Assembly: GCF_024706985.1 (NCBI RefSeq)
Contig: NZ_JAMCCX010000020.1
Location: 1 to 49,789 of the forward strand
Direction: 5' to 3'
From: Alicyclobacillus sp. SP_1
GTDB taxonomy: Bacteria > Bacillota > Bacilli > Alicyclobacillales > Alicyclobacillaceae
Length of the DNA: 49,789 nt
The position numbers and the translations under genes were made by a program. The notes below the pieces were generated by a model. The model ran no database searches, was not told the DNA's origin, and saw only the letters and a list, made by a program, of their open reading frames with translations. Numbering within the stretch: position 1 is the first letter of the stretch; each line of letters starts with the position of its first letter. Shown in pieces: positions 16,736-37,522 of this stretch.

Positions 16736-17611
16736 TCAGCCGAGAAAACGGTGGCTTGGCAACCCAGGCACATCCGTGCGGTGGCGAAAGACACCACCCG
16801 CTCCCGGCTGATCCGCTCGTTCTGCGTCAGTGAGTCCCACTCGCGCAGTCGTGATATAGAGGTCCCGGTGCCCTGGGCCACCAAACGTGCAAGAAGTGAC
16901 ATGTGTAGCAGGCACCGTCGCAACGTCGAGTAGCGCGCCTGAACCAGGATGCCACTTAGAGACGCGTCCACCATCCCAATGCGCTATCCATATATTTCCT
17001 TCTGAATCTGCGGTCATCCCGTCGGGAATGCCAAACGCCGGCGGAATTTCGAACGACGATTTTAGCGGTCCCAATCGCCCTTCCTCTAGATAAAACTCAA
17101 ACGTCTGAACACAGCGCCTAGGCGTATCGATGTAGTACATCTCCTGGTGGTCGGGACTCCAAGCCAAACCGTTTGAAATCGTCACGTCGCCCAAAGATAA
17201 CCGTAGCGGACCAGAATTCGACAGCATATAAAGGCTCGCAATCGGTTGAGACTCCGTCATGTCCATCGTCCCAATCCACCAGCGCCCGCGCGCGTCGCAC
17301 TTGCCATCATTGAAACGAATTTGCTCCAAGTCAGTCTTTAGCGAGGTCACGGGAGTACGCTCGCCAGTCTCCACGTTAAGTTGCTGAATCTCTTTGCCGA
17401 GGGCAATTAAAATATGCTGATCGTCCTTCAGCGCCAGGGCGCTGACCATCCCTCCCACATCGAGACTGGACAGTCGTCCGTCTCGGCCGTCAATCCAATG
17501 CACGGTATGACCGAGAATATCGACAAAATACAACCGCGAAAGCCGTTCGTCCCAGACCGGCCCTTCGCCTAATTCCGCGCGAACATCTGCCACTAGTTCC
17601 AAACTCAACAT
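16736..17611 (-). CDS. SMP-30/gluconolactonase-family lactonase
   Basis: This six-bladed propeller protein of about 291 residues has the family blocks ELGEGPVWDERLSRLYFVDI (first metal ligand Glu), RFNDGKCDARGRWWIGTM (Asn and Asp ligands) and ISNGLAWSPD, DGMTADSEGNIWIA (later Asn/Asp ligands). It should open sugar lactones with a divalent metal. The start at 17611 is preceded directly by GAGAGG, so a TTG a few codons later is also possible. It is the last gene of a GH35-lacI-lactonase operon. In that setting it is the best candidate for hydrolysing galactono-1,4- or 1,5-lactone before the dehydratase encoded at 29522. Confidence 0.8.
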   Translation of the reverse strand: MLSLELVADVRAELGEGPVWDERLSRLYFVDILGHTVHWIDGRDGRLSSLDVGGMVSALALKDDQHILIALGKEIQQLNVETGERTPVTSLKTDLEQIRFNDGKCDARGRWWIGTMDMTESQPIASLYMLSNSGPLRLSLGDVTISNGLAWSPDHQEMYYIDTPRRCVQTFEFYLEEGRLGPLKSSFEIPPAFGIPDGMTADSEGNIWIAHWDGGRVSKWHPGSGALLDVATVPATHVTSCTFGGPGHRDLYITTARVGLTDAERADQPGAGGVFRHRTDVPGLPSHRFLG

Positions 17612-17704
17612 CCTCTCGTGTAAAACTCGCTGCCGGACATCCTCGCGCTCGGTGAAGCCCGATTGCAGTCTCAACTACGCGACCATGCTATCCTCTTGCC
17701 AGAA

Positions 17705-17760
17705 CGAATCCTGCTCTACGAATCCTGCTCTACGAATCCTGCTCTACGAATCCTGCGCTA
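17705..17760. repeat. Four tandem 14-bp repeats
   Basis: The unit CGAATCCTGCTCTA occurs four times head to tail (17705, 17719, 17733, 17747); only the last has one change (GCGCTA). It fills the gap between the lacI stop (17765) and the lactonase gene. It is short enough to vary in copy number by slippage. Confidence 0.9.
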
Positions 17761-17764
17761 CTCC

Positions 17765-18835
17765 TCATCCACACGGTTCAGAAAGCTGACTAAGCTGCCC
17801 TGCGGCAGCATTCAGCCCGTCAACCGTACTGCGCCGAATTTTGAGAACTGGCTCCAGTACCGTATGCTTGCGCACGCGGCGCTTTTGAATCAATTGTAAA
17901 AGTACTCTTACCGAGGTCTCCCCCAACTCTTTGCTGCGCTGAGAAATGGTTGTCAATTCAGGTGTGGTCGAGGCGGCCAGCACTGTGTCGTCAAAGCCGA
18001 CCACGGCAATATCGGCAGGAATGCGCAATCCGTGGTCAAATGCGGTCTTAATTACTCCAACCGAGACAAAGTCATTGACGCAAAAGACTGCAGTTGGCCG
18101 CTCTGGAAGCGCCAACAACTCTTCCATGCGGCGCATTCCACAACCAATCGAGAAGTCCCCGAGAAGCATCCACTCGGGTCGACTCGAGAGACCGTTGACC
18201 GCGAGCGTTTGCTCGAAGGCAGCAATTTTCTCCGTCGTGGCAGTAATCTCCGGTTCGCCGCCGATGAAGCCAATGTGGCGATGACCGAGATCGATAAGAT
18301 GTTGCGTTGCCAATTCGGCACCCCGATGCTCATCAATGAAAACTCGATGAAAACTGGAGCCAGGTAAATCGCCGTTGACGAGAACGATGGGAATTCGTCG
18401 ATTCAAGTCTTCTAATTCTTGAGCCAAGTCCGGCGGACAGTGCCGCTGATTGATACGTCCTCCGAGAAACAAAATCCCGTCCACCTGCTTCTCTCGCAAC
18501 AGCGCCAGGTATTGCGACTCGTACTCAAAATTACCATGCGTTGTGCACAAAAAGAAAGTATATCCTTTTTCTCTGAGTGCATTTTCTGCTCCCGTGAATA
18601 CTTCAGGGAAGAACGGGTTGTTGATGTCCGGTATGACAATGCCGATTGTCCCAGTCACTTTCTTCAACAAACTGCGGGCCAGTCCATTGGGCTGGAATTG
18701 ATATTTTTCGATTAATGCGAGAACCTTCTGACGTGTCGACGCTTTGACGGGAGCAGTTCCATTCAGCACCCTCGAGACCGTCGAGACAGAGACCTCCGCT
18801 TCACGTGCGATGTCATAAACGGTGACATCCAACAT
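17765..18835 (-). CDS. LacI-family transcriptional regulator
   Basis: This protein of 356 residues has an N-terminal helix-turn-helix (VTVYDIAREAEVSVSTVSRVLNG, residues 4-26), the hinge helix after it (LARSLLKKV), and a periplasmic-binding-protein-like sugar sensor from about 60. The operator is probably the LacI-type palindrome at 21514-21527 in front of the GH35 gene of the same operon. The start is ATG at 18835, 5 bases after GAGG and 20 bases behind the GH35 stop. The ligand is likely galactose or a galactoside, inferred from the neighbours. Confidence 0.9.
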   Translation of the reverse strand: MLDVTVYDIAREAEVSVSTVSRVLNGTAPVKASTRQKVLALIEKYQFQPNGLARSLLKKVTGTIGIVIPDINNPFFPEVFTGAENALREKGYTFFLCTTHGNFEYESQYLALLREKQVDGILFLGGRINQRHCPPDLAQELEDLNRRIPIVLVNGDLPGSSFHRVFIDEHRGAELATQHLIDLGHRHIGFIGGEPEITATTEKIAAFEQTLAVNGLSSRPEWMLLGDFSIGCGMRRMEELLALPERPTAVFCVNDFVSVGVIKTAFDHGLRIPADIAVVGFDDTVLAASTTPELTTISQRSKELGETSVRVLLQLIQKRRVRKHTVLEPVLKIRRSTVDGLNAAAGQLSQLSEPCG

Positions 18836-18855
18836 CTATGCCTCGCTCCAATCTG

Positions 18856-21501
18856 CTAACATAGGGAAGCCCTCATCCAATGATTTCGTCGGATTGCCTC
18901 TGTTCCCTCCCGGAAAATCTCGGGTCTTTCAATATATCCATCGGCGGTTGCCTGAATGAAGAGTCGAAGAGTAACGGCTTGCCTCTCTTCGAGCAGCGAA
19001 TTTTCCAGCCACAGCGCATCTGTGCGTCCCCCCACGAGGTGAGGAGACAACTGCGGTCCAAACCACAGTCTTCCAGCCAGGTGATGATCCAACCATACGT
19101 CCATCCGAGCGTTCTCCCCAGCCACTCGCAGATGGATGGAGGACAACACAGCCCTCTGGTGGATGGACAGTCTTCCGGTGACAAGATAGCGCTCTCCTGT
19201 TTTGACCGGAAGTGGCCACTGCACAGATGACTCCTGCACACATCTACCCTGCCAAACCTCTTCCCGGACGCGAGCGGTGTTCCACCCATGAATTGGTGCT
19301 TGAACGCATGGTTCTCCGTCCTTTGGGGGAGACACAGATATGTTACCGGAAGCGCTGTCTACCTCCTCTCCCGCCAGTTTCCCGCGGATGGCGTGGACTG
19401 AACCGAGTATCCCCTTCATCGATCCGAGCACCAAGCTCTGGCACGAATCGTCATGAAAATTGCTGTGACCCCAAGATTCCACCCAAATGTGCAACACATG
19501 GTTTCCCTCATAGACCTTCGAAAACATGCACTCAAAAGCCCGACCATCGCCCGCAAAGACCCCTTCGCAACGGTCATCGACGTACACCCACACAAGATCT
19601 GCAGCGCCCTCCACATAAATGCCTTGAACCGCCCCAGTCAAAGTCGCCTCGTATACGACCTGACCTTGATAGACACCGAGGAGGTCCATCGGCAACGGAT
19701 GATAATACACTATGTCTGCCAGTGGCTCGGTCTTCGGCAAGACCATCGCGCTACTCAACCAGGTGAGGCCCGGCAAACTCAGTGTCGAATCCGTCATCGC
19801 GGCCTCTTCCGTCCAATGGGTCGGTTGGGTGCCATCTGCCGAAAGCCCCGGAGTCAAAGACAGTTCCTGTACGCTTCCGTCCATGCCATACCAAGTTGCC
19901 TCGATTCCGTCCGAAGTAGCGTCGGCTCGAATCCAAAGAGTCCGCTCTGCTGCATCGTAAGCTATCTGACGAACCAGCGCGGAAGTAGACACACAACCCC
20001 AAGGCGAGACATAGGTGTGGCTGGCTATGCCCTCTGGCAAGACGACCACAAGGAGACGAAGACCTGTCTCCCACTCGCATTGGAAAAACTCGATACCCTC
20101 GCGGCAGACAAGGACAAAATCTCCGCTTTCCGAATCACTCCAAGCACTCTTATCCAGCGCCTCTCCGGTCGCATTCAGAATCCTCTGCAAAGGCTGAGAC
20201 AACTCCGAACCGCAGAGAACAGAATCGCCCGGTGTTGCTGCCAGTACGAGCATCGTAGCTCCGTCCGCCGCCGTATTTTGAACAATGGCCGCATTGGTCG
20301 AGAAGACAAGTTCCACCGCAGAAGTCCTGTTCCCTACATGAACTGAGTAGTTTTCGGTCATAACACCGTACGACATCGGCGCGATGGTCAGCGAACATGA
20401 CACGGTACCCAGCTGCTGCCCGGAAATCGTATGTAGCGAGTCTTGCAAGTTAAAGTAAAAACTTATTTTTTCTCGATCTCGCTGGATGGTTTGACGATAC
20501 ACTCGACCGTCTTCGCTGAGACGATCGGCGCCCTCTGCCCGTCCGTACAGAAAGGTGTCATGCGCGCTGTAAACAAGCTGGGTGAGCAGTCGATTTTCAT
20601 AGAAAGTGGCGCGTAGGCGCCCGTCCGCTGTCACCATGCCACCAAAGTCGTAATCGGTGGCGAGATAACTCGGCTTCGCTCGCCAATTGTTGATAGCTTG
20701 CCATGGTCCTCGGTGAATCCCGGACACCATGAGATATGGCGCGATGCCCTGAACTCCGGATGCCACCAAGCGACTCAGAGTCAGAGTGTCTCGGTTGGTT
20801 TCCATGGTCAGCGGGGCGATGTCCTGCGCTTCTAGGTCGCGTAGAATCGGGTTGTAAGCAGTGGCAAGAGCGGGATCTGCCGGATGTTGCGGATAAAAGT
20901 TAAACATCGGCAACAGATGCTCACTGCGACCAGTGGCGCCATCTAAGTCGCCTTGGCCAATACAAGCTGTGATGGGCACGTCCACGCCAAGGCGCCGCAT
21001 CATCCAAAACAGTGCATCCATGTACGCACGCGGGTTCTCGCATGGGAAGAAGTCCAATTCATTCTCCACTTGTACAGCCAAAACACATCCACCTCGGCTC
21101 GACAGATGCGGCAACAACACGGGGACAATCTGCTCATACCAATGCTCCGTCCAGTGGAGCCAAGTCGCATCGTACTGACGGACAGCCAAGCGCGCATCTC
21201 GATAGACCCACGCCGGAATACCGCCGCCATCCCACTCTGAGCAGATGTATGGGCCGGGCCTAGCAATCACGAACAGTCCCATCTCCTCACAAAGTGTCAA
21301 AAATGCGTCCACATCCGCATCTCCCGAAAACTGCAGGAGACCCTCTGAAGGTTCGTGAAAGTTCCAAGGTATGTAGACATCCACCGTGTTATAGCCAGCA
21401 ATCTTGACTTTCTCGAGGCGGTCTCGCCACTCCTGTTGCGGCAGTCGAAAATAGAATACGGAACTGATAAAGAGGAAACGGTCTGTGATTCGTCTCGTCA
21501 C
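18856..21501 (-). CDS. GH35 beta-galactosidase, first copy
   Basis: This is a cytoplasmic enzyme of about 881 residues. The TIM barrel (about 1-320) carries the GH35 blocks YNTVDVYIPWNFHEP, GLFVIARPGPYICSEWDGGG and QVENELDFF (acid/base Glu148); TMETNRD (Glu234) is the nucleophile candidate. The long C-terminal part is beta-rich, with galactose-binding-like and jelly-roll domains. I chose the GTG at 21501, 7 bases after AGGTGG, because the frame's ATG at 21528 overlies a LacI-type operator. There is no signal peptide, so it cleaves imported beta-galactosides. It heads the operon GH35-lacI-lactonase. It is distant from the second GH35 at 26829 and probably prefers another linkage. Confidence 0.85.
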   Translation of the reverse strand: MTRRITDRFLFISSVFYFRLPQQEWRDRLEKVKIAGYNTVDVYIPWNFHEPSEGLLQFSGDADVDAFLTLCEEMGLFVIARPGPYICSEWDGGGIPAWVYRDARLAVRQYDATWLHWTEHWYEQIVPVLLPHLSSRGGCVLAVQVENELDFFPCENPRAYMDALFWMMRRLGVDVPITACIGQGDLDGATGRSEHLLPMFNFYPQHPADPALATAYNPILRDLEAQDIAPLTMETNRDTLTLSRLVASGVQGIAPYLMVSGIHRGPWQAINNWRAKPSYLATDYDFGGMVTADGRLRATFYENRLLTQLVYSAHDTFLYGRAEGADRLSEDGRVYRQTIQRDREKISFYFNLQDSLHTISGQQLGTVSCSLTIAPMSYGVMTENYSVHVGNRTSAVELVFSTNAAIVQNTAADGATMLVLAATPGDSVLCGSELSQPLQRILNATGEALDKSAWSDSESGDFVLVCREGIEFFQCEWETGLRLLVVVLPEGIASHTYVSPWGCVSTSALVRQIAYDAAERTLWIRADATSDGIEATWYGMDGSVQELSLTPGLSADGTQPTHWTEEAAMTDSTLSLPGLTWLSSAMVLPKTEPLADIVYYHPLPMDLLGVYQGQVVYEATLTGAVQGIYVEGAADLVWVYVDDRCEGVFAGDGRAFECMFSKVYEGNHVLHIWVESWGHSNFHDDSCQSLVLGSMKGILGSVHAIRGKLAGEEVDSASGNISVSPPKDGEPCVQAPIHGWNTARVREEVWQGRCVQESSVQWPLPVKTGERYLVTGRLSIHQRAVLSSIHLRVAGENARMDVWLDHHLAGRLWFGPQLSPHLVGGRTDALWLENSLLEERQAVTLRLFIQATADGYIERPEIFREGTEAIRRNHWMRASLC

Positions 21502-21513
21502 ATTCACACCACC

Positions 21514-21527
21514 TGAAATCGGTTTCA
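21514..21527. promoter_or_regulatory. LacI-type operator upstream of GH35
   Basis: TGAAATCGGTTTCA is a perfect match to the LacI/CcpA-type consensus TGnAAnCGnTTnCA. It lies 13 bases before the preferred GTG start of the GH35 gene. It may bind the LacI regulator of the same operon, or CcpA. Confidence 0.65.
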
Positions 21528-21946
21528 TTCGCCATGGAATTTACGTCGTTGTCTTAATCAATTCTGGCGGACTGCATTGCAATTTGCAACCGCAACCACC
21601 TCTCGGCGAAATAAGACGAGAAATTATTTGTTCAGAAAAATATTGATATCTCGCAGCATTATGACTAATCTATACCTATACTCCCTAGATTTCTGCCTCG
21701 TCGATACAATGTCCTTCCAGCCACTGTTCTCCACTCTCTTGCAGAAGTCCATCGAGTGTCAAGGGGGAATGCCTATATTGTTATTATGAATTATTAATTT
21801 GAGGTATTCAACGGAAAGCTTATTGTTCCTCTCATTTCTGAGAACACACATCTTCGCCGGACTAGACAAAAGACGACGGCCTCGGCAAGCACTCATCGCC
21901 ACACCTCTGCTTTGGCCGAACGAAACGAAAGGGGTTTGACTCTTCC
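21528..21946. other. Divergent intergenic region between GH35 and GH2 genes
   Basis: These 419 bases separate the leftward GH35 operon from the rightward GH2 gene and must hold both promoters. The stretch 21600-21830 is AT-rich. I see no clear, well-spaced -35/-10 pair and no gene. A purine-rich AAAGGGG lies 12 bases before the GH2 start. Confidence 0.5.
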
Positions 21947-24154
21947 ATGGAAAAAAGTAAACGCGCCATCGTTGCGAAATCTGCTATGAGTGCGATTTTT
22001 CTCTGCGGAGCAGCAGCGCTGGTGGCTCCAGTCGCGTACGCGTCGCCGCTGTCGTATCACACGATCGACAACTTCCCGTCGCCGCACCTAGGCAAAACCG
22101 AACCGATGGACAGTCACATTGAGAACGTCGATGGCGTCAATGTCCTCTATCAATACGGCCAACCAGTTCCTTCTTTCGCGACAGATGGGTTCAAACAGCC
22201 GGGTCGCCAATTCATTTCATTGGACAAGGTGTGGCGGTTTCAAACGGATCCGACCGATGTTGGTGTCCTTGAAGGATGGGCTGACCCCGGATACAACGAC
22301 CAAAACTGGACGCCTGAGAAGATTCCCAGTTCCATGGACCTCTATGGCACAAAAGGCTTTGGGTCCACAGACGGCAGTTACTGGGGAAGTGGCGACTCCC
22401 TCTATGACGGATTCGCTTGGTTTCGCACGTCCGTTCAAGTGCCGCCAAACTGGAACAAAAAGTTCGTTCACTTGAACTTTCTTGCCGTCAACTACATGGC
22501 TTGGATTTATGTGAACGGTCAATTTGTAGGAGAGCATGAAGGTTCCAACACCGCATTCTCTTTGGATGTGAGTCGATACTTACACCCGGGGAAGAATGTC
22601 ATTGCCGTCCGAGTTTGGCGTCCGAATCCACACATGACCTTGGACCGTGCTGTTCCCAATGGTCGCGTCGACTACTGGCCCTATGGAGGCATCGTCTACG
22701 GCGCTTATTTAGAAGCTACGGACCAGATGAGCGTCAGCAAAATCTTGACGAACACTGGTGACCACACGTTGAACACGGACGTCGTTCTCTACAACCATGG
22801 TTCTAAGACTGCCACGCGCACACTCGTCGTCAATCCCGGAAAAGGTTCTGGAGGCAAGCCAGTATCTCAGACAGTCACCTTGGCTCCGCATTCGGTGCAA
22901 GTAGTCAAAATGACGTTCGCCATCCCGAAGGCACAGTGGTGGACAAGTTCCACACCAAATCTGTACACCGTCACCGCGTCCCTCTATGCACCAACCCCTG
23001 GGCCAGGGCCTGGTGCGCAAGCGGGATCGACCACAGGGACGGTCTATGGCCCCACGACCGTCGCTGGTGCATTGCAGCCGCCCGTTGGGCCAAATCCTCC
23101 TGCTGTACCGGGCGGCCCCGCACAGCCAGGACCGGTTGGAAAAGGCAACCCTCCACAGCCACCCACGCCGCCAGCCGGGCCGGGAGTTAAGCCCCTGGAC
23201 AGCTTGACGACGCACTATGGTATGCGCACCATCGGCATTGCCAACGACCATATCACGCTGAACGGCAAGCCCATCTTCCTGAAGGGGTTTGATTGGTACT
23301 CTGAATTCGGGAATGACGGAGAATCCATAACCAAGGCTCAATATCGAGAAGAACTGAGTGAAGTCCATAAATTAAATGCAAACTTCATTCGAAACAACTC
23401 CTATCCACGTGCTCCTTTTGTCTACCACTATGCCGACAGACATGGCATCATGGTCATGGATGAGGCGCCCAATATGTGGCTTAGTGGCAAAGGAGAAGAG
23501 CGACAACTGACTTACGGCTTGTCGAAAGCGTTAGTAGAGTCCATGGTATGGAACCACGAAAACAACCCGTCCATCATCCTCTGGTCGATGTCCGATGAGG
23601 TTCAACAGAACCATGGCTACTTCAAACGCTGGATGTCGCAATTGGTCGACGCAACCAAAAAGCTCGACGTGCAAAATCGACCCGTCACTTGGTGTGCTGA
23701 CCCGTGGCACTGGCATGGCGACAGTCTTGCAAGTGTTCTCGGATTGAATGAGTACTACGGCTATTTCTACAATACTAACCATCCAAAGCGCAACTACAAC
23801 TACTATCTCAGCCGCTTTCACAGCGAGTATCCGAACAAACCCATTTTGGTCACGGAAAATGGTAGTTGGTCGCTCAAAGGCAATGGGAATTCCGCAAATA
23901 CACCCGGCTCGCAAGAATGGGAAGCAAAACTCTTCCAAGAGAATTGGGATGTAGCACTGCAGAATGACTCTTTTGTAACCGGTTACACATATTGGGTTTT
24001 GAAGGACTACAAGACCCGCGGCGGATACAACCAGAATTTGAATGGATTTTCCACCATGGGCATGCTGTCCTTCAATATGCACCACAAGCGGCTCGTCTAC
24101 ACTGCTTTCAAAGATGCGAAGAACCCTATAGCCTACTCTTCCGTGGCAAAGTGA
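21947..24154 (+). CDS. Secreted GH2-family beta-galactosidase or glucuronidase
   Basis: This protein of 735 residues has a Sec signal peptide (lysine-rich start, hydrophobic core, AYA cleavage near residue 32). The order is a GH2 sugar-binding jelly roll (about 75-250), an Ig-like domain (about 260-345), a Pro/Gly-rich insert (about 349-414), then the TIM barrel. The acid/base Glu is in ILWSMSDE near residue 550 and the nucleophile Glu is in ILVTENGSW near 637. The motif HGIMVMDEAPNMWL is typical of the family. It is exported, in contrast to the two GH35 enzymes, so it acts outside the cell on a polymer or oligomer. The usual C-terminal lactase domains are absent. The exact sugar specificity is not decided. 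Confidence 0.85.
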   Translation: MEKSKRAIVAKSAMSAIFLCGAAALVAPVAYASPLSYHTIDNFPSPHLGKTEPMDSHIENVDGVNVLYQYGQPVPSFATDGFKQPGRQFISLDKVWRFQTDPTDVGVLEGWADPGYNDQNWTPEKIPSSMDLYGTKGFGSTDGSYWGSGDSLYDGFAWFRTSVQVPPNWNKKFVHLNFLAVNYMAWIYVNGQFVGEHEGSNTAFSLDVSRYLHPGKNVIAVRVWRPNPHMTLDRAVPNGRVDYWPYGGIVYGAYLEATDQMSVSKILTNTGDHTLNTDVVLYNHGSKTATRTLVVNPGKGSGGKPVSQTVTLAPHSVQVVKMTFAIPKAQWWTSSTPNLYTVTASLYAPTPGPGPGAQAGSTTGTVYGPTTVAGALQPPVGPNPPAVPGGPAQPGPVGKGNPPQPPTPPAGPGVKPLDSLTTHYGMRTIGIANDHITLNGKPIFLKGFDWYSEFGNDGESITKAQYREELSEVHKLNANFIRNNSYPRAPFVYHYADRHGIMVMDEAPNMWLSGKGEERQLTYGLSKALVESMVWNHENNPSIILWSMSDEVQQNHGYFKRWMSQLVDATKKLDVQNRPVTWCADPWHWHGDSLASVLGLNEYYGYFYNTNHPKRNYNYYLSRFHSEYPNKPILVTENGSWSLKGNGNSANTPGSQEWEAKLFQENWDVALQNDSFVTGYTYWVLKDYKTRGGYNQNLNGFSTMGMLSFNMHHKRLVYTAFKDAKNPIAYSSVAK

Positions 24155-24218
24155 ATTACTACAGACCCCAGGCACGAAACGCATAGCATAGCGTGGTCAG
24201 TTCCGGCTGACGACAAAA

Positions 24219-24265
24219 CCGAATGCGGCACCTGCTTCCATGTTGAGGAGCGGGGCCGCATTCGG
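24219..24265. terminator. Inverted repeat behind the GH2 gene
   Basis: CCGAATGCGGC (24219-24229) and GCCGCATTCGG (24255-24265) are perfect complements with a 25-base loop, between the convergent GH2 and SDR genes. There is no T-run, so it is at best a weak or factor-assisted terminator. The rest of 24155-24414 shows nothing. Confidence 0.4.
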
Positions 24266-24414
24266 CATTTGATGTCTGTTGGTTTGAATCCGGTTGGGCG
24301 TAGTCCGAGCCGACTGTCGCGCGAATACCGTCAGCCCACACCCCCTCCCGCCGAGCCTAAACTTGCGGCGTTCTGTAGCGCAAGGGTGCGCTCGGTGATG
24401 TCTCCTCACCGGGC

Positions 24415-25191
24415 TCACTCGGACACATAGAGTTGAGCTGAAACACCACCATCCAAGACAACAGACGTCCCCGTTATCATGCTGGCATCCTCAGATGCGA
24501 GAAAAACAGCAAGCTTGCCTACATCCGCAGGACTTACAATCCTCCCGAGAGGATGAAGCCGCAGCGTCTCTCGTTCTCGTGCCTTGGGATCTTCGACATC
24601 TTGCAACCAACGCTGGTAGTGTGGGGTATCCGTAAAACCGGGACAGATGGCTACGGAGCGAATGCCTTTGGGACCGTAAGAGAGCGCAAGACTTTTGGTG
24701 AATGCAACCATAGCACTCTTTGCTGCGGCGTAGGCCTCACTGTCTGGGAGGGTTGAAAGCGCGTGATTGGACGCAATGTTGAGGATAACTCCGGACCCTT
24801 GTTGCATCATCGTCGGCAGGACTTGTTTGGAACAGAGAAAAGCTCCCTTCAAGTCGACCGATAGTAAGTGATCCCATTCGGATTCTTCCATGTCCAAAAG
24901 AGGTTTGAACAACACAACCCCGGCATTGTTGACGAGCGTATCAATCCGACCAAAATTGTCAATCACACGCTCCACCATGGCCCGCACTTGGCGTCCATCC
25001 GACACATCCACTGGAATAAAAAAGCCACGGTTTCCCGAACGCCGCAACTGCTCTGCAGTCGCTTCGCCATGCTCTACATCAATATCTGCAATCAAAACGA
25101 TAGCGCCACGCAGAACAAACTCTTCGGCCACGCCTCTGCCAATTCCAGCCGCCGCACCGGTGACAATAACCACTTTGTCGCGTACTTCCAT
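24415..25191 (-). CDS. SDR dehydrogenase, candidate galactose dehydrogenase
   Basis: This protein of 258 residues has TGAAAGIG at 11-18, NNAG at 88-91, the catalytic Ser141, Tyr154 and Lys158, and the C-terminal GTSVVLDGG. Asp at the end of the second strand (IADIDVE) suggests NAD rather than NADP. The start ATG at 25191 gives the standard family N-terminus. The frame opens at 25269, and an ATG four codons upstream follows GGAGAGG directly. By neighbourhood it could oxidise galactose to galactonolactone, the first step of the pathway completed by the lactonase and the dgoD-kinase-aldolase operon. Sequence alone cannot exclude other sugar or alcohol substrates. Confidence 0.8.
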   Translation of the reverse strand: MEVRDKVVIVTGAAAGIGRGVAEEFVLRGAIVLIADIDVEHGEATAEQLRRSGNRGFFIPVDVSDGRQVRAMVERVIDNFGRIDTLVNNAGVVLFKPLLDMEESEWDHLLSVDLKGAFLCSKQVLPTMMQQGSGVILNIASNHALSTLPDSEAYAAAKSAMVAFTKSLALSYGPKGIRSVAICPGFTDTPHYQRWLQDVEDPKARERETLRLHPLGRIVSPADVGKLAVFLASEDASMITGTSVVLDGGVSAQLYVSE

Positions 25192-25442
25192 GAAGGCGAC
25201 CATCCTCTCCGCAATGCATCTATCCGAACAAACAACCAAGACGTGCAACCAAAACGTACAAAAAACCAAAACGACGCACTGTCGCTATTATATCATAATC
25301 GCAAATAACTAAATGTGGTTGAGACGGTAGAAACCCATGATTTCCACCCAACAGTTCTGAAACAATCCCCCTATTTCTGTAGCTCCCGCTCTCGCTTGCG
25401 CCGCTCATCGCGACCATCCCGAGAGCGGTCTCTCTCATCGGT

Positions 25443-26690
25443 TCAATCTTGAATGGATTTCGGTATAGCCACCGCTTCTGGAGATTGAAAGACGTGTTCC
25501 AGAACCAGAGTCGCTCCACCCAGTGGATAAATTAATTTGCCGAACTTCGATACGAGAACCTTGGTACTCTTTCCTGCATCCCCAAGTGCCCGATGAACAA
25601 TCACATCTTCAATATCCGGCAAAATCAAATCTGCCACTTCCGCCATCCCGCCGCTCAAGACAACGAAAAGTGGATTAAACAGGTTGATGAGCGTCGACAT
25701 CCCAATACCAAGATACCGTCCCGCGGACCGCAGTACGTCTTTACACAGTTCATCCCCAGAACGCGCAGCTTGGTAGATGGTTTGAATGGAAATACTGTTC
25801 TCATCCCAATGGTCGAATTGTGAAGAGAGAACGCTTCGCTCCCCCGCACGAAGCCGCTTTAAAACGCGGCGGACAATCGCTGGCTCAGACGCCATAACTT
25901 CAAGACACCCAAAGTTACCACAAGCACAGCGCGGCCCGTCTTCATCAACCGTGGTGTGACCAATCTGTCCTTCAATATGGGCAATACCGCGGTATAGTTT
26001 GCCATCAAAGATGATGCCCGCACCGATGCCATAGTCGACGACCATCGTGATGAACTGTCTCGAACCTGTGGCTACGCCTGTCCACAACTCGGCGAGCGCG
26101 GACGTATTGGTATCACTATCGACGTAAGTCGGAAGACCCATTTTGGCTTCCAAGAAGTCCTTTACAGGTACATCGTGCCAACCGAGATTCGGAGCATAGA
26201 CAGAATAGCCAGTGCCTGGGTGCACCACTCCATGCATCGCCACGCCAATTCCGACTAACAGCGAGCGCTCCACACGGCAGGAAGCAATCAGACTTTCGCA
26301 CATAGAGCAGACTTCGGTCAGTGCCAGCTCAGGCGTGACCCCTTCGGTCAGAGGGACCGTGCTTTGACCGATGACTTCCGAATTGAGATTGCAGAGGATG
26401 ACGCTCAGTTGATACGCGCCAATCTCTGCACCGAGGACATACCGACCGTTCGGATTAATCTCCAGAGGAATAGGCCGTCTCCCGCGACCACCGGGCGATG
26501 CAGTCAATTCTCGAATCCATCCTCCGACAATCAAGTCACTGACGATTTCTGATACAGATGGTCTGGATAAATCAATACATTCCGCAATTTCCGACCGAGA
26601 AATTGGCCCTCTTTCACGAATGACACGAAGTACGGAAATAATATTGAACTGCTTCATCATTTCAATATTCATCTTTTGAGCCTGCAACAT
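25443..26690 (-). CDS. ROK-family transcriptional repressor
   Basis: This protein of 415 residues has an N-terminal winged helix (about 8-75, RGPISRSEIAECIDLSRPSVSEIV) and a ROK sugar-kinase-like domain with the zinc motif CACGNFGCLE near residue 230 and the ROK signature before it. This XylR/NagC type binds free sugars and leaves DNA when induced. It is divergent from the second GH35 gene, so the 138-base gap is its likely control region. ATG at 26690 is 4 bases after GGAG; another in-frame ATG lies six codons downstream. Bases 25192-25442 behind it hold no gene. Confidence 0.9.
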   Translation of the reverse strand: MLQAQKMNIEMMKQFNIISVLRVIRERGPISRSEIAECIDLSRPSVSEIVSDLIVGGWIRELTASPGGRGRRPIPLEINPNGRYVLGAEIGAYQLSVILCNLNSEVIGQSTVPLTEGVTPELALTEVCSMCESLIASCRVERSLLVGIGVAMHGVVHPGTGYSVYAPNLGWHDVPVKDFLEAKMGLPTYVDSDTNTSALAELWTGVATGSRQFITMVVDYGIGAGIIFDGKLYRGIAHIEGQIGHTTVDEDGPRCACGNFGCLEVMASEPAIVRRVLKRLRAGERSVLSSQFDHWDENSISIQTIYQAARSGDELCKDVLRSAGRYLGIGMSTLINLFNPLFVVLSGGMAEVADLILPDIEDVIVHRALGDAGKSTKVLVSKFGKLIYPLGGATLVLEHVFQSPEAVAIPKSIQD

Positions 26691-26773
26691 AGAACTCCAC
26701 ATCCGATTTGTGTTTTTTCAATATCTTCATGTAGCTTCTTCATCATAAAACTGGCTAAGGGCCAAATCAAGAA

Positions 26774-26802
26774 TTGATTTTTCGTGTCAACAGATTTATT
26801 AT
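26774..26802 (+). promoter_or_regulatory. Promoter of the GH35-dgoD-kinase-aldolase operon
   Basis: TTGATT (26774-26779) and TATTAT (26797-26802) are exactly 17 bases apart, a good sigmaA promoter, 26 bases before the ATG at 26829. An AGGAGG site lies 7 bases before that ATG. It is in the divergent gap facing the ROK repressor gene. No clear ROK operator palindrome was found. Confidence 0.65.
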
Positions 26803-26828
26803 CACAAATAACAATAGGAGGCGAAGCA

Positions 26829-29417
26829 ATGACTACGAGCGTCCAAATAGATCGTCACAGTGTCCTTGTAGACGGTCAGCGGCTCCAGCTGGTCTCGGGA
26901 GCAGTTCACTATTTTCGCATTCCACGGGATGAATGGGAGTCTCGCCTCGATGACTGTTGGCAAGCTGGCCTTAATACCATTGAAACCATCGTTCCATGGA
27001 ATGTCCATGAATATCACGAAGGAAAGTATTGCTTCTCAGGCAACCGGGACTTGGCAGCATTCATTGACCTCTGCCATAGCCGCGGATTTTTTGTGATTGT
27101 GCGCCCCAGCCCCTATATTTGCGGGGAATGGGACAATGGTGGTCTTCCTTTTTGGCTGACGCAGAAGAGTGACATCGCCTATCGGCGGGCCAATCCCGTG
27201 TTTATGAAGTATATCTCTCGCTGGCATGAAGTGCTACTGCCACTAATCGTGTCGCGTCAAGTAAGCTCTGGCGGACCAATTTTAATGGTTCAGATTGAAA
27301 ATGAATACGGCTATTTTGGCGATGCGGACGAGATCGAATACATGACTTTCTTGCGCGATGAATTGTTGCATCACGGAGTGACTGTCCCTCTCATCACCTG
27401 CGACTTACCCGGCAACGGATGGCTCGTGGATGGGGCGACGAAGTGCGCAAATTTTGGTTCTAACTTCCGGGAGGGATTGCGTGTCTTGGCAGACGAACAG
27501 CCAGATGCGTTTCGCTTTGTCTCGGAATTGTGGCTTGCTTGGTTTGATCATTGGGGAGGAGAACATCACACACGTTCTGGCAGAAATGTAGGGAACGCGT
27601 TGAAGGAAGTTCTTGCTGCTGGCGGACACTACAACTTTTACATGTGGTCGGGTGGGACGAACTTCGGATACTACGGTGGACGTACCACAGACGACGAATT
27701 TGGTGCTTTCATCACGGCGAGCTATGACTACGATGCTCCACTGGGCGAGACGGGCGTCATCACCGAGAAATTTCATGAGTGTCGCCTCGTCAACTGGTTA
27801 GCACAGAGCTATCAGGACCTCTTTGTAGACAGTGACGAAACGCCTGTGACGTGGAGGGTGCCAGAGACTGACGTGCTTTTAACGGAGCGCCTATCTCCTT
27901 CTGGACGCACCATTTTTGTTCGAAATGACACTCCCAACACCGTCACTCTTCGTCTCGCGAACCATGATGATTCGGTACGCGCAAAGGCTGGTACGTTGCT
28001 CGCGGGAGAGACGCGCATCTTCTTATCTGACGTCGCGCTCAGTCCAACCGTGAAACTACGTCTCGCCACGGCAGACGCCTTCTTAAATTTGGGCAAGGAA
28101 CACCTCTTCTACGGTGAACCGGGCGACACGTACGAGTTTCATCTGACTGTGGATGGTACCGTGACGGTTTTATCAGGCACAGTGCCGAACGGTCAGGAAC
28201 CAGCCAGACACGCTGTCGGCGACGTGACACTCTACGTCTTTGCGAGAGAAGTCGCACGTTCTGTACGCGTACCGAAAGAACATGCCTCGTTTACCGTGCA
28301 AATGGACTGGAACCAATACGACCAACAGGAGGCCTTGCCCGCACTCTCCTTTGAACAGGCTGAAGTTCTCTCCGCCTTGGATACCAGGACGTCTGACTGG
28401 AAGTCGTCGCACCCACTTCCGCTCGAAGACTTCGGTGCATACCAGGGCTATGGCTGGTACCACACGTCGTTTGTCAGCGACGGCACGCCGACTCGCCTCG
28501 TTCTTGAATCCGTTCATGACCGCGCCACGGTCTTTTTAAACGGGCGCCGTCAAGGAGTGGTCGGAGCATTCGCCCCGTTCGCGCTATGCGATATCGAACC
28601 CACTCCGGGTGTCAATTGCCTCTCCGTCTTGCTCGACAATTTGGGTAGATATTGCTTCACCGCGCGACTCGGGGAACGCAAAGGGCTGCTTGGCAACGCC
28701 TACCTCGGCGGACACGAACTGGCGCTGCCCACTTGGACTCCGAGTGAGCTAGACGATGGAGCCCTTAATCTACGCATTCCTTGGGAACACGGCGAAGGCA
28801 TTTTGCTCCGAGTGTTTGGACTCGACACGACTCCCATCGAGTTTTATCTGCATGGCCACCTCATCTATAAACACCGTTCGTACAACGATGACGACCGCTT
28901 CTTTGAAGTCAACGTCACGAAGTGGTTGCGGCCAGGCGATAACATCTTGGAAGTCCGTCCCGCAAAATCGCTTGAACATGCACCCTCCATCAAGGCTGTC
29001 CGCTATGCCTTGGACCAGCAATTGACAGAACCGTGGACAATGGCAGCAGGTGTGGTCGGAGAGAGCGGCGATGTTGAGATTTCGACTCATCCGTTTGCCG
29101 CAATGTCTTATGGACCAGTGCCAGTCCCCGCCGAAAACAGAGTGGCGCCGCGCTTTTTCCGGAGCCATTTCAAACTAGCCCCCGCAGGGCCTACTGTGCG
29201 CAGGCATCCGGTCAAGTTGAAACTCACAGGACTCGGAAAAGGCTCTGTGTGGCTGAACGGACATCATTTGGGACGGTACTGGTCAGCGGGACCACAGACT
29301 GCACTGTACATCCCCGACAGCTATTTGTCTGAAACAGGTAATGAACTGTATATCTTTGATGAAGAAGGGCGTAGTCCAGACCAAGTCCATCTGCTCTACG
29401 AAGCACATTTTTCCTAG
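26829..29417 (+). CDS. GH35 beta-galactosidase, second copy
   Basis: This is a cytoplasmic enzyme of 862 residues. The TIM barrel carries LVSGAVHYFRIPRDEW (20-36), TIETIVPWNVHEYHEG, VRPSPYICGEWDNGG, the acid/base Glu159 in QIENEYG and the nucleophile Glu233 in VSELWLAWFDHWG, then the FYMWSGGTNFGYYGG block. The C-terminal half has beta-jelly-roll domains. All GH35 landmarks are canonical, so it should release galactose from beta-galactosides. The ATG at 26829, 7 bases after AGGAGG, is preferred over an upstream in-frame ATG. It leads an operon with dgoD, the kinase and the aldolase, which ties galactose release to oxidative breakdown. Confidence 0.9.
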   Translation: MTTSVQIDRHSVLVDGQRLQLVSGAVHYFRIPRDEWESRLDDCWQAGLNTIETIVPWNVHEYHEGKYCFSGNRDLAAFIDLCHSRGFFVIVRPSPYICGEWDNGGLPFWLTQKSDIAYRRANPVFMKYISRWHEVLLPLIVSRQVSSGGPILMVQIENEYGYFGDADEIEYMTFLRDELLHHGVTVPLITCDLPGNGWLVDGATKCANFGSNFREGLRVLADEQPDAFRFVSELWLAWFDHWGGEHHTRSGRNVGNALKEVLAAGGHYNFYMWSGGTNFGYYGGRTTDDEFGAFITASYDYDAPLGETGVITEKFHECRLVNWLAQSYQDLFVDSDETPVTWRVPETDVLLTERLSPSGRTIFVRNDTPNTVTLRLANHDDSVRAKAGTLLAGETRIFLSDVALSPTVKLRLATADAFLNLGKEHLFYGEPGDTYEFHLTVDGTVTVLSGTVPNGQEPARHAVGDVTLYVFAREVARSVRVPKEHASFTVQMDWNQYDQQEALPALSFEQAEVLSALDTRTSDWKSSHPLPLEDFGAYQGYGWYHTSFVSDGTPTRLVLESVHDRATVFLNGRRQGVVGAFAPFALCDIEPTPGVNCLSVLLDNLGRYCFTARLGERKGLLGNAYLGGHELALPTWTPSELDDGALNLRIPWEHGEGILLRVFGLDTTPIEFYLHGHLIYKHRSYNDDDRFFEVNVTKWLRPGDNILEVRPAKSLEHAPSIKAVRYALDQQLTEPWTMAAGVVGESGDVEISTHPFAAMSYGPVPVPAENRVAPRFFRSHFKLAPAGPTVRRHPVKLKLTGLGKGSVWLNGHHLGRYWSAGPQTALYIPDSYLSETGNELYIFDEEGRSPDQVHLLYEAHFS

Positions 29418-29423
29418 AGTCAG

Positions 29424-29446
29424 AGGCCAGCCTGCGGGCTGGCCTT
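29424..29446 (+). terminator. Hairpin between GH35 and dgoD
   Basis: AGGCCAGCC and GGCTGGCCT are perfect 9-bp arms with a 4-base loop, 7 bases behind the GH35 stop. Only a weak T-rich stretch follows, so it may reduce rather than stop transcription into dgoD. Confidence 0.55.
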
Positions 29447-29521
29447 GTCCGTCTTTGCACGGGAACACAACAGAAGACCTACGCGTCAGGGAATGTAGTC
29501 TGCCCGAAGGAGGACATCGGC

Positions 29522-30670
29522 GTGAAAGTCGAACGGATTGAAACCTTTTTAGTTCCGCCACGGTGGCTGTTTGCCAAGGTCACTTGCGATGACGGCACAT
29601 TCGGCTGGGGTGAACCCGTCGTCGAAGGCAAAGCGGAGACCGTTGCCGCAGCCGTGAAGGAATTGAGTGAGCATCTGATAGATAGAGATGCAGAGAACAT
29701 CGAAGACATCTGGCAGACCCTCTATCGTGGCGGATTTTACCGAGGCGGGCCTATTTTAATGAGCGCTATCGCTGGCATTGACCAAGCCCTATGGGACATC
29801 AAAGGCAAACGCCATGGTATGCCCGTACATCAGTTGCTCGGCGGTCTGGTGCGCGAACGAGTGCAGGTCTACAGTTGGATTGGCGGAGACCGCCCGCAAG
29901 ACGTGTGCGATCAAGCAAAACGTCAGGTGGAAGCCGGATTCCGAGCTCTCAAAATGAATGCGTGCGACGAATTGCACTACGTGGACAGCCATGCCAAAGT
30001 CGAAGCCGTCGCACAGCGCGTCGCTCTCGTTCGCGAAGCCGTCGGCAGCGGTGTGGGCATCGCGGTCGATTTTCACGGCCGCGTCCACCGCGCCATGGCC
30101 AAAGTGCTCCTTCGCGAGTTAGAGCCATATCATCTGATGTTTGTGGAGGAGCCCGTGTTGCCCGAGCACATGGACGCCCTCGCCAGCATCTCGAGCAGTT
30201 CCTCCATTCCCATCGCTCTAGGCGAACGTCTCTACAGCCGTTGGGACTTCAAGCAAATTCTCGCCAGCGGGTTGGTCGACATCATTCAGCCGGATTTGTC
30301 TCACGCGGGCGGCATCAGCGAAGTTCGTAAAATTGCCTCCATGGCGGAAGCATACGACGTCGCGGTGGCTCCGCACTGCCCACTGGGTCCCATCGCCCTC
30401 GCCGCCTGCCTGCAGCTCGATGGCGTGACCCCCAACGTCTTCATTCAAGAGCAGAGTCTAGGCATTCACTACAACACGTCCAACGATTTACTGGACTATC
30501 TCCAGGATGCAAGCGTCTTTACCTACCACGACGGCTTTGTACGCATTCCCGACGGTCCTGGCCTCGGAATAGATGTAAAGGAACCACTCATCCGGGAACT
30601 CGCGGCGCGAGGCCATGCATGGCACAATCCACTTTGGAGGCACGAGGACGGGACGGTGGCCGAATGGTGA
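29522..30670 (+). CDS. dgoD: D-galactonate dehydratase
   Basis: This enolase-superfamily enzyme of 382 residues converts D-galactonate to 2-keto-3-deoxygalactonate. Metal ligands Asp183, Glu209 and Glu235 and catalytic His185 and His285 are all present at the positions known for Escherichia coli DgoD, in VDFHG, FVEEP, ALGERLY and APHCPLGP. The start is GTG with a GAAGGAGG-type site 9 bases upstream. The next gene starts 7 bases before its stop. The pathway call is strong: positions and spacing of the active-site residues separate it from mandelate racemase and from other acid-sugar dehydratases fairly well. Confidence 0.93.
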   Translation: MKVERIETFLVPPRWLFAKVTCDDGTFGWGEPVVEGKAETVAAAVKELSEHLIDRDAENIEDIWQTLYRGGFYRGGPILMSAIAGIDQALWDIKGKRHGMPVHQLLGGLVRERVQVYSWIGGDRPQDVCDQAKRQVEAGFRALKMNACDELHYVDSHAKVEAVAQRVALVREAVGSGVGIAVDFHGRVHRAMAKVLLRELEPYHLMFVEEPVLPEHMDALASISSSSSIPIALGERLYSRWDFKQILASGLVDIIQPDLSHAGGISEVRKIASMAEAYDVAVAPHCPLGPIALAACLQLDGVTPNVFIQEQSLGIHYNTSNDLLDYLQDASVFTYHDGFVRIPDGPGLGIDVKEPLIRELAARGHAWHNPLWRHEDGTVAEW

Positions 30671-31623
30671 ACCAAGCCCGCACCACAGAGGTCGCGACGT
30701 TTGGGGAGGTGATGACCCTCTTCTATCCCACGACGGTCGATCCGCTTCGATTTGCCCACCGCTTCGCCAAAACGGTCGCTGGAGCAGAGTCGAACGTCGC
30801 TGTAGGCTTAGCCCGACTCGGTCATCGCGTGAACTACCTGACGAAGCTTGGCGACGACGAGTTCGGCCGCTTCGTCCACCATTTTCTGCGCGGCGAAGGT
30901 GTAGACACGCGTCATGTGACCTTTCACAAGACCGCACCCACCGGAGTCTTCTTCAAGCAGCGGCAGCCAACAGGGGACCCGCAAATCCTCTATTACCGCA
31001 ACCATTCTGCAGCGAGTACGCTGGCCCCATCCGACATCCCTGAAGAGTTCATTGCGAGTGCCCGCTACCTGCACCTGACAGGAATCACACCCGCGCTCAG
31101 TGCGACCGCGCGCGAGGCCACCTTCACAGCTGCCCAAATGGCCCGCGAACATGGCACGACGGTCGTGCTCGACCCTAACATTCGGCGCAAACTGTGGAGC
31201 GCAGAAGAAGCTCAAGAGACGCTGCTGAGGCTCGCCCAGTGGGCAGACATCGTGCTCCCCGGCATAGATGAGGGACGTCTTCTGACCGGACGAGACTCTG
31301 CAGAAGAGATGGCCGCCGAGTTTCTCAATGCAGGGGCACGCCTCGTCGTCGTCAAGCTCGGCCAAGACGGTGCATACTACCGCACGAACGACACAGCAGG
31401 CACTGTGCCAACCCATCCCGTTCCCACAGTGGTCGATCCGGTTGGCGCCGGCGACGCCTTCGCCGCTGGTCTGTTGTCCGGGTTGCTGCGCGAGCAGCCC
31501 CTGCCGGATGCGGTTGCTCTGGCGACACGCGTGGCGGCACGGGTCATCGAGTGGGTCGGAGATGTTGAAGGCCTGCCCACTTGGCAGGATATCACAGAAG
31601 ACAACGAACGGATCACCCGATAG
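30664..31623 (+). CDS. kdgK: PfkB-family 2-keto-3-deoxy-gluconate/galactonate kinase
   Basis: This ribokinase-fold kinase of 319 residues has TFGEVM at the N-terminus, the AGAESNVAVGLARLG block and the signature DPVGAGDAFAAG with its catalytic Asp near the C-terminus. It phosphorylates the keto-deoxy acid made by the dehydratase. The ATG at 30664 overlaps the dgoD stop by 7 bases, giving coupled translation; the frame begins at 30619. PfkB kinases of this type often accept both KDG and KDGal, which would let it serve the uronate side of the region as well. Confidence 0.88.
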   Translation: MVNQARTTEVATFGEVMTLFYPTTVDPLRFAHRFAKTVAGAESNVAVGLARLGHRVNYLTKLGDDEFGRFVHHFLRGEGVDTRHVTFHKTAPTGVFFKQRQPTGDPQILYYRNHSAASTLAPSDIPEEFIASARYLHLTGITPALSATAREATFTAAQMAREHGTTVVLDPNIRRKLWSAEEAQETLLRLAQWADIVLPGIDEGRLLTGRDSAEEMAAEFLNAGARLVVVKLGQDGAYYRTNDTAGTVPTHPVPTVVDPVGAGDAFAAGLLSGLLREQPLPDAVALATRVAARVIEWVGDVEGLPTWQDITEDNERITR

Positions 31624-31663
31624 AATGCGAGCCAATTTGCGGTACGAAAAGGAGTGAACAACC

Positions 31664-32323
31664 ATGAGTCGTTCCGAGGTATTGGAAGAAATCAGAACAA
31701 CGGGATTGATTGCGATTCTGCGTGGATACGCCGGACGAGCAGTGCCATCCATTGTGGAGAGTCTGATTGCAGGGGGCTGCAGAGCGGTCGAAGTGACCAT
31801 GAATTCGGAGTCTGCGGTCGATTTGATTGCCGAGCTGGCCGAGCGTTTTAAGGGGCGCGCGCGGATTGGCGCGGGAACCGTCCTGAGTCCACAAGATGCA
31901 GAGCACGCTATTCGCGCCGGAGCAGCGTTCCTCGTGGCACCGAACCTGAATCCGCAGGTCCTCCAGGTAGCGAATGCCAAGGGCTGTGCCGTCTTCCCTG
32001 GTGCTATGACCCCAACCGAAATTGAGCAAGCCTACTCTCTTGGTGCGGACGCGGTCAAAGTGTTTCCCAGCGACGTGCTCGGCCCTGCCTACATTCGGGC
32101 GGTGCGTGCGCCGTTGCCGAACATTCCACTCGTGCCCACGGGAGGCGTTTCACAGGCCAATGCCGCCGACTACATCCGAGCCGGAGCCATCGCCGTAGGA
32201 GTCGGCAGTCATCTCGTACCCAAAGCCGCGACAGATGGTACCATGCCGCAACTCGTGCAGACCGCGACAGAAGAGTTCCTCGCGGTCATTCAGTCCGCGA
32301 AGCGAGCCTTGTCCCCAAGCTGA
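31664..32323 (+). CDS. eda: KDPG/KDPGal aldolase
   Basis: This class I aldolase of 219 residues has Glu43 (RAVEVTM), Arg20 in LRG and the Schiff-base Lys132 in ADAVKVFPSD. It splits 2-keto-3-deoxy-6-phosphogluconate or -galactonate into pyruvate and glyceraldehyde-3-phosphate. AAAAGGAG lies 9 bases before the ATG. It is the last gene of the GH35-dgoD-kinase-aldolase operon, 40 bases after the kinase. By context it is a DgoA-type enzyme for the galacto form, but eda and dgoA cannot be separated by sequence alone. Confidence 0.9.
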   Translation: MSRSEVLEEIRTTGLIAILRGYAGRAVPSIVESLIAGGCRAVEVTMNSESAVDLIAELAERFKGRARIGAGTVLSPQDAEHAIRAGAAFLVAPNLNPQVLQVANAKGCAVFPGAMTPTEIEQAYSLGADAVKVFPSDVLGPAYIRAVRAPLPNIPLVPTGGVSQANAADYIRAGAIAVGVGSHLVPKAATDGTMPQLVQTATEEFLAVIQSAKRALSPS

Positions 32324-32389: not shown

Positions 32390-33553
32390 TCACCAAATCT
32401 CCGGCTCCATCGTCCCTCGAAGTCGCATCAGCGCCTCCACATAGAAGTAGTCCCCGTAAATGAGCGATGTGTTGACGTGTAAGTTTTCTGGAACATTAGC
32501 CGATGCATTCGGAACAATGCCTTCCGAAAAGTTATCCGCGCCCTCCCTACCTCCAACTTCTTGCTCATGCCACTGCACGTGGTGCCACAGGCGCTGTACC
32601 CACTCGCGACCGCGAGCAAGTAGGCTTCCATCGGACATCGCGTCCCCAAGGACCAACAGACCACAGGCAGCGATAGCCGCTGCAGAGCTGTCGAAAGCAT
32701 CGCTCGCTACCCCACGATGGTCAAAGTCCCACGGAGGCATGCAGTCCACTCCCCCAGCCGTCCAGGACGCATCGAAGAAATCCGCCAAGCGCCGCGATGC
32801 TCGTGCATAGCGTTCATCGCCTGTGTGCCGAAACTGGTGTGCCAGTCCGCATAGCGCCCAGGCCGCTCCGCGTGACCACGCGGAGTCTTCACGAGCACCC
32901 TGACCCGACAGCCTGCCAAGCCGCTGCCCCGTCTCCGGGTGAAACGCCACAATGTGCGCCGTCCACCCATGTGGATGGAGAAACTCGGCTAGCACGGTGT
33001 CCGCATGAGCATTCGCGATGTGCGAGAAGCGCGGATCTCCGGTGAAGTTGCTTGCAAAATGGAGTAGCGGCAAATTCATCAGACAGTCGATAATGGCCCA
33101 TCCTGCCATCTGCCGCGACTCCTCGGTGTTTCCCCAAGCGCGGAGAAAACGCCCGCGCAAATTGAAGCGACTAGCCAGTCGCTCGGCTGCGGTGAGCGCA
33201 TGCAAAGCCGCCTCGTGGTCAGAGGCCAGCCGATACTGTTGCACCGAGGACAGCGTAAAGAGAAAGCCAGCATCGTGATCGACCCTGGCATCAGCGCGCA
33301 ACACCCCAACCAAATCCGCTTCGCACCGCTCTGCGATTTGACGGTACGCGTCCAGTCCCAGATATCGATAACCCAGCCAGAGGAGCCCTGGCCAAAAGCC
33401 GCCGGTCCACCAGGAAGGCTCCGCCAGAACATACTCACCTCGAACCACCGCGTGCGGAAACTGCGACGAAATTCTCTGCAGCAACCGCTCTATTTTCCCA
33501 TTCGCATGGTCCAGCGCCAACGTCACCCAGTCGTTCTCTCCAGCCCGTTCCAT
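32390..33553 (-). CDS. GH88-family unsaturated glucuronyl hydrolase
   Basis: This (alpha/alpha)6-barrel enzyme of 387 residues has the GH88 hallmarks PSWWTGGFWPG (47-57), Asp94 in DHDAGF and Asp156 in GWAIIDCLMNLPLL, the two catalytic Asp residues of Bacillus UGL, plus DSAWSRGAAWALCG. It removes the 4,5-unsaturated uronic acid that polysaccharide lyases leave at the non-reducing end of oligosaccharides. The start is ATG at 33553, 9 bases after GGGGAG. It is the last gene of the transporter-lyase operon, 40 bases behind the heparinase-like lyase, a logical pair. The product would rearrange to a keto-deoxy precursor. GH105 is less likely. Confidence 0.88.
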   Translation of the reverse strand: MERAGENDWVTLALDHANGKIERLLQRISSQFPHAVVRGEYVLAEPSWWTGGFWPGLLWLGYRYLGLDAYRQIAERCEADLVGVLRADARVDHDAGFLFTLSSVQQYRLASDHEAALHALTAAERLASRFNLRGRFLRAWGNTEESRQMAGWAIIDCLMNLPLLHFASNFTGDPRFSHIANAHADTVLAEFLHPHGWTAHIVAFHPETGQRLGRLSGQGAREDSAWSRGAAWALCGLAHQFRHTGDERYARASRRLADFFDASWTAGGVDCMPPWDFDHRGVASDAFDSSAAAIAACGLLVLGDAMSDGSLLARGREWVQRLWHHVQWHEQEVGGREGADNFSEGIVPNASANVPENLHVNTSLIYGDYFYVEALMRLRGTMEPEIW

Positions 33554-33592
33554 GCTGGCCTGCTCCCCTTTCCGCAAACACATCTACTGCCG

Positions 33593-35509: not shown

Positions 35510-35611
35510 AAGACACTCCTTTCCCCCCGCTTCCACACAGTGAAACCGGGGTAAGAGACAGCCCATCTTGGTTCATCACACCCCAGCATCGGCACTCGGG
35601 TTACCAGCGTA

Positions 35612-37425: not shown

Positions 37426-37522
37426 TTATTCCCCTCCTCCTGTACCAGTGATGTTCGCGAGTGGCGATGACCCGAGAGAGGGCGAGTGCCCATGGCACTC
37501 GCCCACCCGCTCGAGAGAGAAC

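Follow-up and report, generated by a model that had tools for sequence, protein, structure and literature searches.

Bacilli are usually taken to metabolise galactose through the Leloir or the tagatose pathway, and the question raised by this locus is whether it encodes an oxidative route in addition. The window, the whole stretch of DNA analysed, is the complete 49,789-bp contig C20 of a 3.4-Mb draft genome, and its genes were assigned with Pfam and NCBIfam. We consider it likely that the cluster encodes the oxidative, or De Ley-Doudoroff, pathway for galactose, which beta-galactosidase-type enzymes would supply and which is accessory beside galTKE. The GH35 and GH2 enzymes, placed in their families by sequence, would release galactose, which a short-chain dehydrogenase/reductase (SDR) would oxidise with NAD to galactonolactone; an SMP-30 protein would then open the lactone. 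DgoD, recognised by family and residues, would convert galactonate to 2-keto-3-deoxygalactonate, to be phosphorylated by a PfkB-family kinase and split by an Eda-type aldolase into pyruvate and glyceraldehyde-3-phosphate. This kinase and aldolase may also take KDG from a neighbouring glucuronide-type operon.

Gene content and layout

All genes named in the original prediction are present within 16736-32323 by Pfam and NCBIfam matches, and the same stretch holds LacI and ROK regulators that the prediction did not mention. The pathway enzymes fall in three strand blocks, and the GH2 gene forms a fourth. The first block, on the minus strand, comprises GH35a (18856-21528), a LacI-family regulator (17765-18835; Pfam LacI and Peripla_BP_3), and an SMP-30/gluconolactonase-family protein proposed as D-galactonolactonase (16736-17674; Pfam SGL, 246.7 bits). 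The intergenic stretch that follows the lacI stop and precedes the lactonase start contains a 14-bp unit repeated 4.1 times at 97% match (17704-17761). The GH2 gene (21947-24154, plus strand) encodes Pfam GH2 N and C domains, and its product is probably exported, because the N-terminus is hydrophobic as judged by eye. A second minus-strand block carries a ROK-family regulator (25443-26702; Pfam) and, 251 bp away, the SDR, a proposed NAD-dependent D-galactose 1-dehydrogenase (24415-25191; Pfam adh_short_C2, NCBIfam, and clade placement).

The last block, on the plus strand, encodes GH35b (26784-29417), DgoD (29522-30670), the PfkB kinase (30664-31623), and the Eda-type aldolase (31664-32323). 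The PfkB start (30664) overlaps the dgoD stop, and the 104 bp that separate GH35b from DgoD contain a GC-rich hairpin with a perfect 9-bp stem (29424-29445, plus strand), so it is not certain that the genes from GH35b to Eda are transcribed as one unit. The divergent gap between the ROK and GH35b genes contains a 17-bp perfect inverted repeat (AAATCAA-GAA-TTGATTT, 26764-26780), a candidate operator that is unique in the window, with no second site at fewer than three mismatches. Sites with one mismatch occur in AT-rich DNA of loci L082 (2301) and L179 (9881), and we do not claim a shared operator; the L082 site falls inside a ROK gene, near its start. Scans for promoters (11 vs. 10.2 expected) and terminators (21 vs. 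15.4 expected) gave numbers near chance.

Both predicted GH35 enzymes match Pfam GH35, but GH35a is divergent, its match (181 bits) covering residues 18-197 only, with the VQVENE region aligned. GH35b (GH35 315 bits, plus BetaGal domains) aligns to 4mad through the QIENEYG and SELW..WFDHWG regions and is, by these matches, an ordinary beta-galactosidase-type GH35. The genome has one more GH35 match, its third, on contig C35 (L189, 1520-2032), behind a LacI-type regulator gene.

Elsewhere on the contig, 3345-7702 and 12496-12825 carry transposase genes (rve/Mu-type, IS110) and genes for a DUF6431 protein and a PemK/MazF-type protein, and this left part is mostly AT-richer. A PLD-ResIII-Helicase_C-DUF3427 protein of helicase-nuclease type is encoded at 46538-49459. 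Convergent to the aldolase gene is a glucuronide-type operon (32390-41337), of which the minus-strand genes at 32390-38965 encode a solute-binding protein (SBP), two ABC permeases, a heparinase II/III-like protein, and a GH88 unsaturated glucuronyl hydrolase, followed by a DUF5054/GH38-like gene. The GH88 hydrolase matches 1vd5 at 180 bits, and the Pfam GH88 and Hepar_II_III_C matches are both slightly below their cut-offs.

Proposed steps from galactonolactone to pyruvate

The identity of DgoD as a D-galactonate dehydratase is certain as far as sequence can establish it: the protein scores 665.7 bits against the NCBIfam equivalog PRK14017 (cut-off 311) and 507.9 bits against 3rr1. In the latter alignment D183, H185, E209, E235, and H285 are all present, and these we take to be the five active-site residues that the original prediction reported. 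For the kinase, aldolase, lactonase, and SDR the family assignments are sound and the substrates putative. The best NCBIfam model for the PfkB protein is the KDG/KDGal kinase (238 bits, under the cut-off of 400), and the protein also matches the PDB KDG kinases 1v19 and 1wye; we propose it as a 2-keto-3-deoxygalactonate (and KDG) kinase. The aldolase, a candidate KDPGal (and KDPG) aldolase, passes the NCBIfam eda cut-off (185.1 vs. 156.05), scores 164.5 against the KDPGal aldolase model PRK09140 (under its cut-off of 207), and matches the KDPGal aldolase 2v81 at 109 bits. At E ≤ 0.001 the window Eda and the window PfkB protein each find only themselves in the draft genome, although a distant kinase could escape such a search. 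Because they are the only ones detected in the genome and lie convergent to the glucuronide-type operon, the two enzymes probably handle KDG from that operon as well.

The lactonase aligns to regucalcin (4gnb) with conserved GE.PVW, RFNDGK, ISNGL, and IPDGM stretches, which presumably hold the metal ligands. It is 45% identical to a homologue inside the dgo run of L178 and 46% identical to one in L147 that lies away from dgoD. A lactonase tree, built without L103 (a fragment) and without L071, L100, and L153 (outside the ORF filter), was dropped as support for a galactonolactonase role: the placement was ambiguous, among homologues away from dgoD. SMP-30 proteins are present in two of the five loci that carry relatives of the window SDR (kin loci, described below), none of 20 loci from the class (L111-L130), and 11 of 80 named loci. 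From gene linkage, a galactonolactonase role is plausible.

A dgoD-linked SDR clade in Bacillota

Judged by itself, the window SDR reads as a generic SDR: among the NCBIfam matches listed, the broad "glucose 1-dehydrogenase" subfamily is the only name over its cut-off (241.7 vs. 215). The 60 near relatives contain no close orthologue (best 46%), and the best four occur in a different gene context. Among the named dgoD loci examined (the best 80 of 594), two from Bacillota have a related SDR inside the dgo gene run: L082 (Bacillus sp. FJAT-49711; 53% identical), arranged as ABC genes-GH36-SDR-Eda-DgoD-x-PfkB, and L088 (Mammaliicoccus sciuri; 45%), where a sugar porter accompanies ROK-SDR-PfkB-Eda-DgoD. 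The L088 porter is, by NCBIfam, the glucose transporter GlcP (860 bits, cut-off 750).

A profile of the window, L082, and L088 SDRs, biased in being partly built from dgoD-linked members, was searched against 398 genomes of the class (E ≤ 1e-70, scoring at most six SDR candidates per genome). Of the 32 matches, spread over 30 genomes, four reached 348-480 bits and, after a gap, the remainder fell at 276-239. The four strong matches belong to the own genome and to G341, G396, and G202, the last three being outside the set from which the profile was built. When their positions were compared by eye with those of DgoD, each of the four proved to be no more than 6 kb from one, vs. none of the 28 weaker matches within 58 kb, several of these being in genomes that lack DgoD. 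In L178 (G341) a ROK gene accompanies the run SBP-ABC-ABC-x-SDR-DgoD-PfkB-SMP30-Eda, and in L180 (G202) SDR-PfkB-Eda-SMP30-DgoD is divergent from ROK-SBP-ABC-ABC-LacZ-type GH2. L179 (G396) has PfkB-Eda-DgoD, with the SDR and ROK genes ~5.5 kb away beside a Peripla_BP_4 sugar-binding protein, and a lactonase is absent from that stretch. In two of these other genomes the dgoD-linked SDR is thus accompanied by an SMP-30 lactonase, and sugar transporters or galactosidases also occur beside such SDRs.

When the window SDR is compared pairwise with the ORFs called in the loci, its five best matches are the five dgoD-linked SDRs, and six SDRs outside the ORF filter score no higher against it than does L132. 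In a tree restricted to SDRs of at least 100 bits, with the long-branch rows L064, L080, L092, and L172 left out, the window SDR and these five form one clade (support 98/95). N142, F186, H191, and Y255 occur in all six members and in none of the 26 others. All six members, and two of the 26, have Asp at residue 113, where the remainder carry Asn. In L178 and L082, Thr-Arg at 36-37 takes the place of the acidic D36 found in the window SDR, and the cofactor may differ there. Three Rhodanobacter loci (L067, L085, and L092) have Eda-DgoD-SDR-SMP30 runs with distant SDRs (28-31%) that lie outside the final tree and perhaps represent a separate recruitment.

A ROK homologue is encoded in all five kin loci vs. 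one of 98 other dgoD loci (L112), and the window ROK protein is 54% identical to the one beside the SDR in L179. Galactosidase matches occur in two of the five kin loci vs. none of 39 others, both matches being the queries themselves (LacZ of L180 and GH36 of L082; GH42 was not a query). Outside this contrast set, the Anaerolineae locus L097 has a 28% GH2 match ~9 kb from dgoD. A tie between galactosidases and SDR-clade dgoD loci is therefore no more than suggestive. Linkage to dgoD makes it probable that the SDR is part of the pathway, as its galactose dehydrogenase; recurrence in or near dgoD runs of other class genomes strengthens this step of the De Ley-Doudoroff reading. We read dgoD loci with the clade SDR, the window among them, as galactose loci, and those without it as mostly galactonate loci. 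DgoD itself is encoded in 70 of the 398 class genomes and the dgoD-linked version of the SDR in at least four, as scored from at most six SDR candidates per genome. The original prediction that the route is unusual in Bacillota thus applies to the SDR-bearing version, but not to DgoD.

We hold at about even chances a wider proposal: that the window SDR belongs to an unnamed clade of dedicated Bacillota D-galactose 1-dehydrogenases (SNHxxxTLxD...CPGF...H), accompanied by ROK in six of six loci, by a PfkB-type kinase, and by SMP-30 in three of six; that the kinase and aldolase form a node common to galactose and glucuronides; and that beta-galactoside/glucuronide polymer could be taken to pyruvate through one enzyme pair, with the Leloir pathway in parallel.

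Alternatives, genome context, and known systems

On contig C105 the genome carries galT, galK, and galE side by side, and all three score over their curated cut-offs (galT 177 vs. 102.1; galK 489.4 vs. 385; galE 431 vs. 262.3). The oxidative route is therefore additional, and replacement of the Leloir pathway is rejected for this genome; the contrast that the original prediction drew with a Leloir-using norm in Bacillota is only partly valid. As a counterpoint to the favoured reading, the organism can use the Leloir pathway, so no metabolic gap forces an oxidative route. The one same-genus genome searched encodes galK, but its best DgoD match is at only E 9.5e-9, and searches for a lactonase (threshold 1e-20) and for Eda and GH35 (threshold 0.001) found none there. 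Because these are lacking at such thresholds, the gene cluster appears to be accessory. A galactokinase is present in G341, whereas G202 has a match below cut-off and G396 none; of two further genomes, G004 has it and G011, which encodes DgoD without a linked SDR, does not. Over the whole class, 214 of 398 genomes have a galactokinase over cut-off. With none over cut-off in the other 184, and none in G011, we rejected galactokinase absence as statistical support.

The main substrate of the SDR and lactonase might be an aldose other than galactose (L-arabinose, D-fucose, or glucose), with galactose secondary. Sugar-1-dehydrogenases can be promiscuous, the L-arabinose dehydrogenase and lactonase of Burkholderia ambifaria converting galactose too (PMC11219438), and the broad "glucose 1-dehydrogenase" name and the GlcP-type porter of L088 point the same way. 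However, the linked dehydratase is DgoD, the kin loci carry GH36 and LacZ-type GH2, and no second sugar-acid dehydratase was noticed on looking through the ORFs listed, without a family search; we regard this reading as unlikely. A pathway for imported galactonate only, comprising DgoD, the kinase, and the aldolase, with the SDR and lactonase as unrelated neighbours, would agree with most dgoD loci examined, which are without the clade SDR and in several cases (by eye) adjoin an MFS-type transporter. The window dgoD, however, is flanked by GH35b and PfkB rather than a transporter, and in five further loci dgoD is accompanied by an SDR of the clade, which renders a galactonate-only function rather improbable.

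The remaining alternative assigns the kinase and aldolase chiefly to the glucuronide route (KDG), with the SDR as KduD. In its favour are the adjoining GH88 hydrolase and heparinase-like protein, the detection of only one Eda and one such kinase genome-wide, and a KduI on contig C42 (411.9, cut-off 250). In that stretch (L186, 60-1451), however, KduI already adjoins a partial SDR that best matches KduD and stops at 167 aa, 60 bp short of the end of the locus; KduD models are outside the best 25 of 184 families for the window SDR, and DgoD yields KDGal, not KDG. On these grounds the identification of the SDR as KduD was rejected, and the reading as a whole is highly improbable. Shared handling of KDG and KDGal by the kinase and aldolase is nonetheless likely.

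As for known systems, the E. coli dgo operon likewise combines DgoD with an Eda-type aldolase; it serves galactonate uptake and has a DgoK-type kinase, whereas the window has a PfkB kinase, SDR, lactonase, and galactosidase-type enzymes. SMc00588 of Sinorhizobium meliloti is, we assume, an SDR. In related rhizobia, too, an SDR adjoins dgoD; these SDRs differ from the window SDR (36-40% identical) and form a separate clade, and galactose dehydrogenase was therefore probably recruited more than once. The De Ley-Doudoroff pathway is known in proteobacteria and archaea (PMC3687685; PMC5507952; PMC11219438), and gal/SMc00588 is described as its galactose dehydrogenase gene in S. meliloti, where lactose/beta-galactosidase genes feed this step, as proposed here (PMC3687685). 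Rhodobacteraceae and Halomonas resemble the window in combining pathway enzymes with an alpha-galactosidase and a CUT1-type ABC transporter, or with a COG3386 lactonase, DgoL being proposed as such in Halomonas dgo loci; they differ in being Gram-negative, in having IclR or DgoR regulators, and, for Halomonas, in the reported lack of orthologues of known galactose dehydrogenase (passages of PMC5507952). Within Bacilli, dgoD and a galactose dehydrogenase are named in expression data for Bacillus licheniformis CGMCC 23967 (passages of PMC9960700), and dgoD and eda receive a passing mention for Enterococcus faecalis (passages of PMC6042284); the passages of PMC6353982 contain no such mention for Bacilli. 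Among the open-licence papers listed as matches, none, judged by its title or the start of its abstract, is a study of Bacilli with this set of genes or with this SDR.

The pathway is thus known from other bacteria, and what seems new is a version with a little-known dehydrogenase. NCBIfam names this SDR generically, and with an SDR clade that can be recognised, the oxidative route could be annotated in genomes of the class. Of the three further class genomes in which the SDR is linked to dgoD, two lack a galactokinase over cut-off, one of the two having an adjoining LacZ, and in such genomes the oxidative route could be the main route of galactose use.
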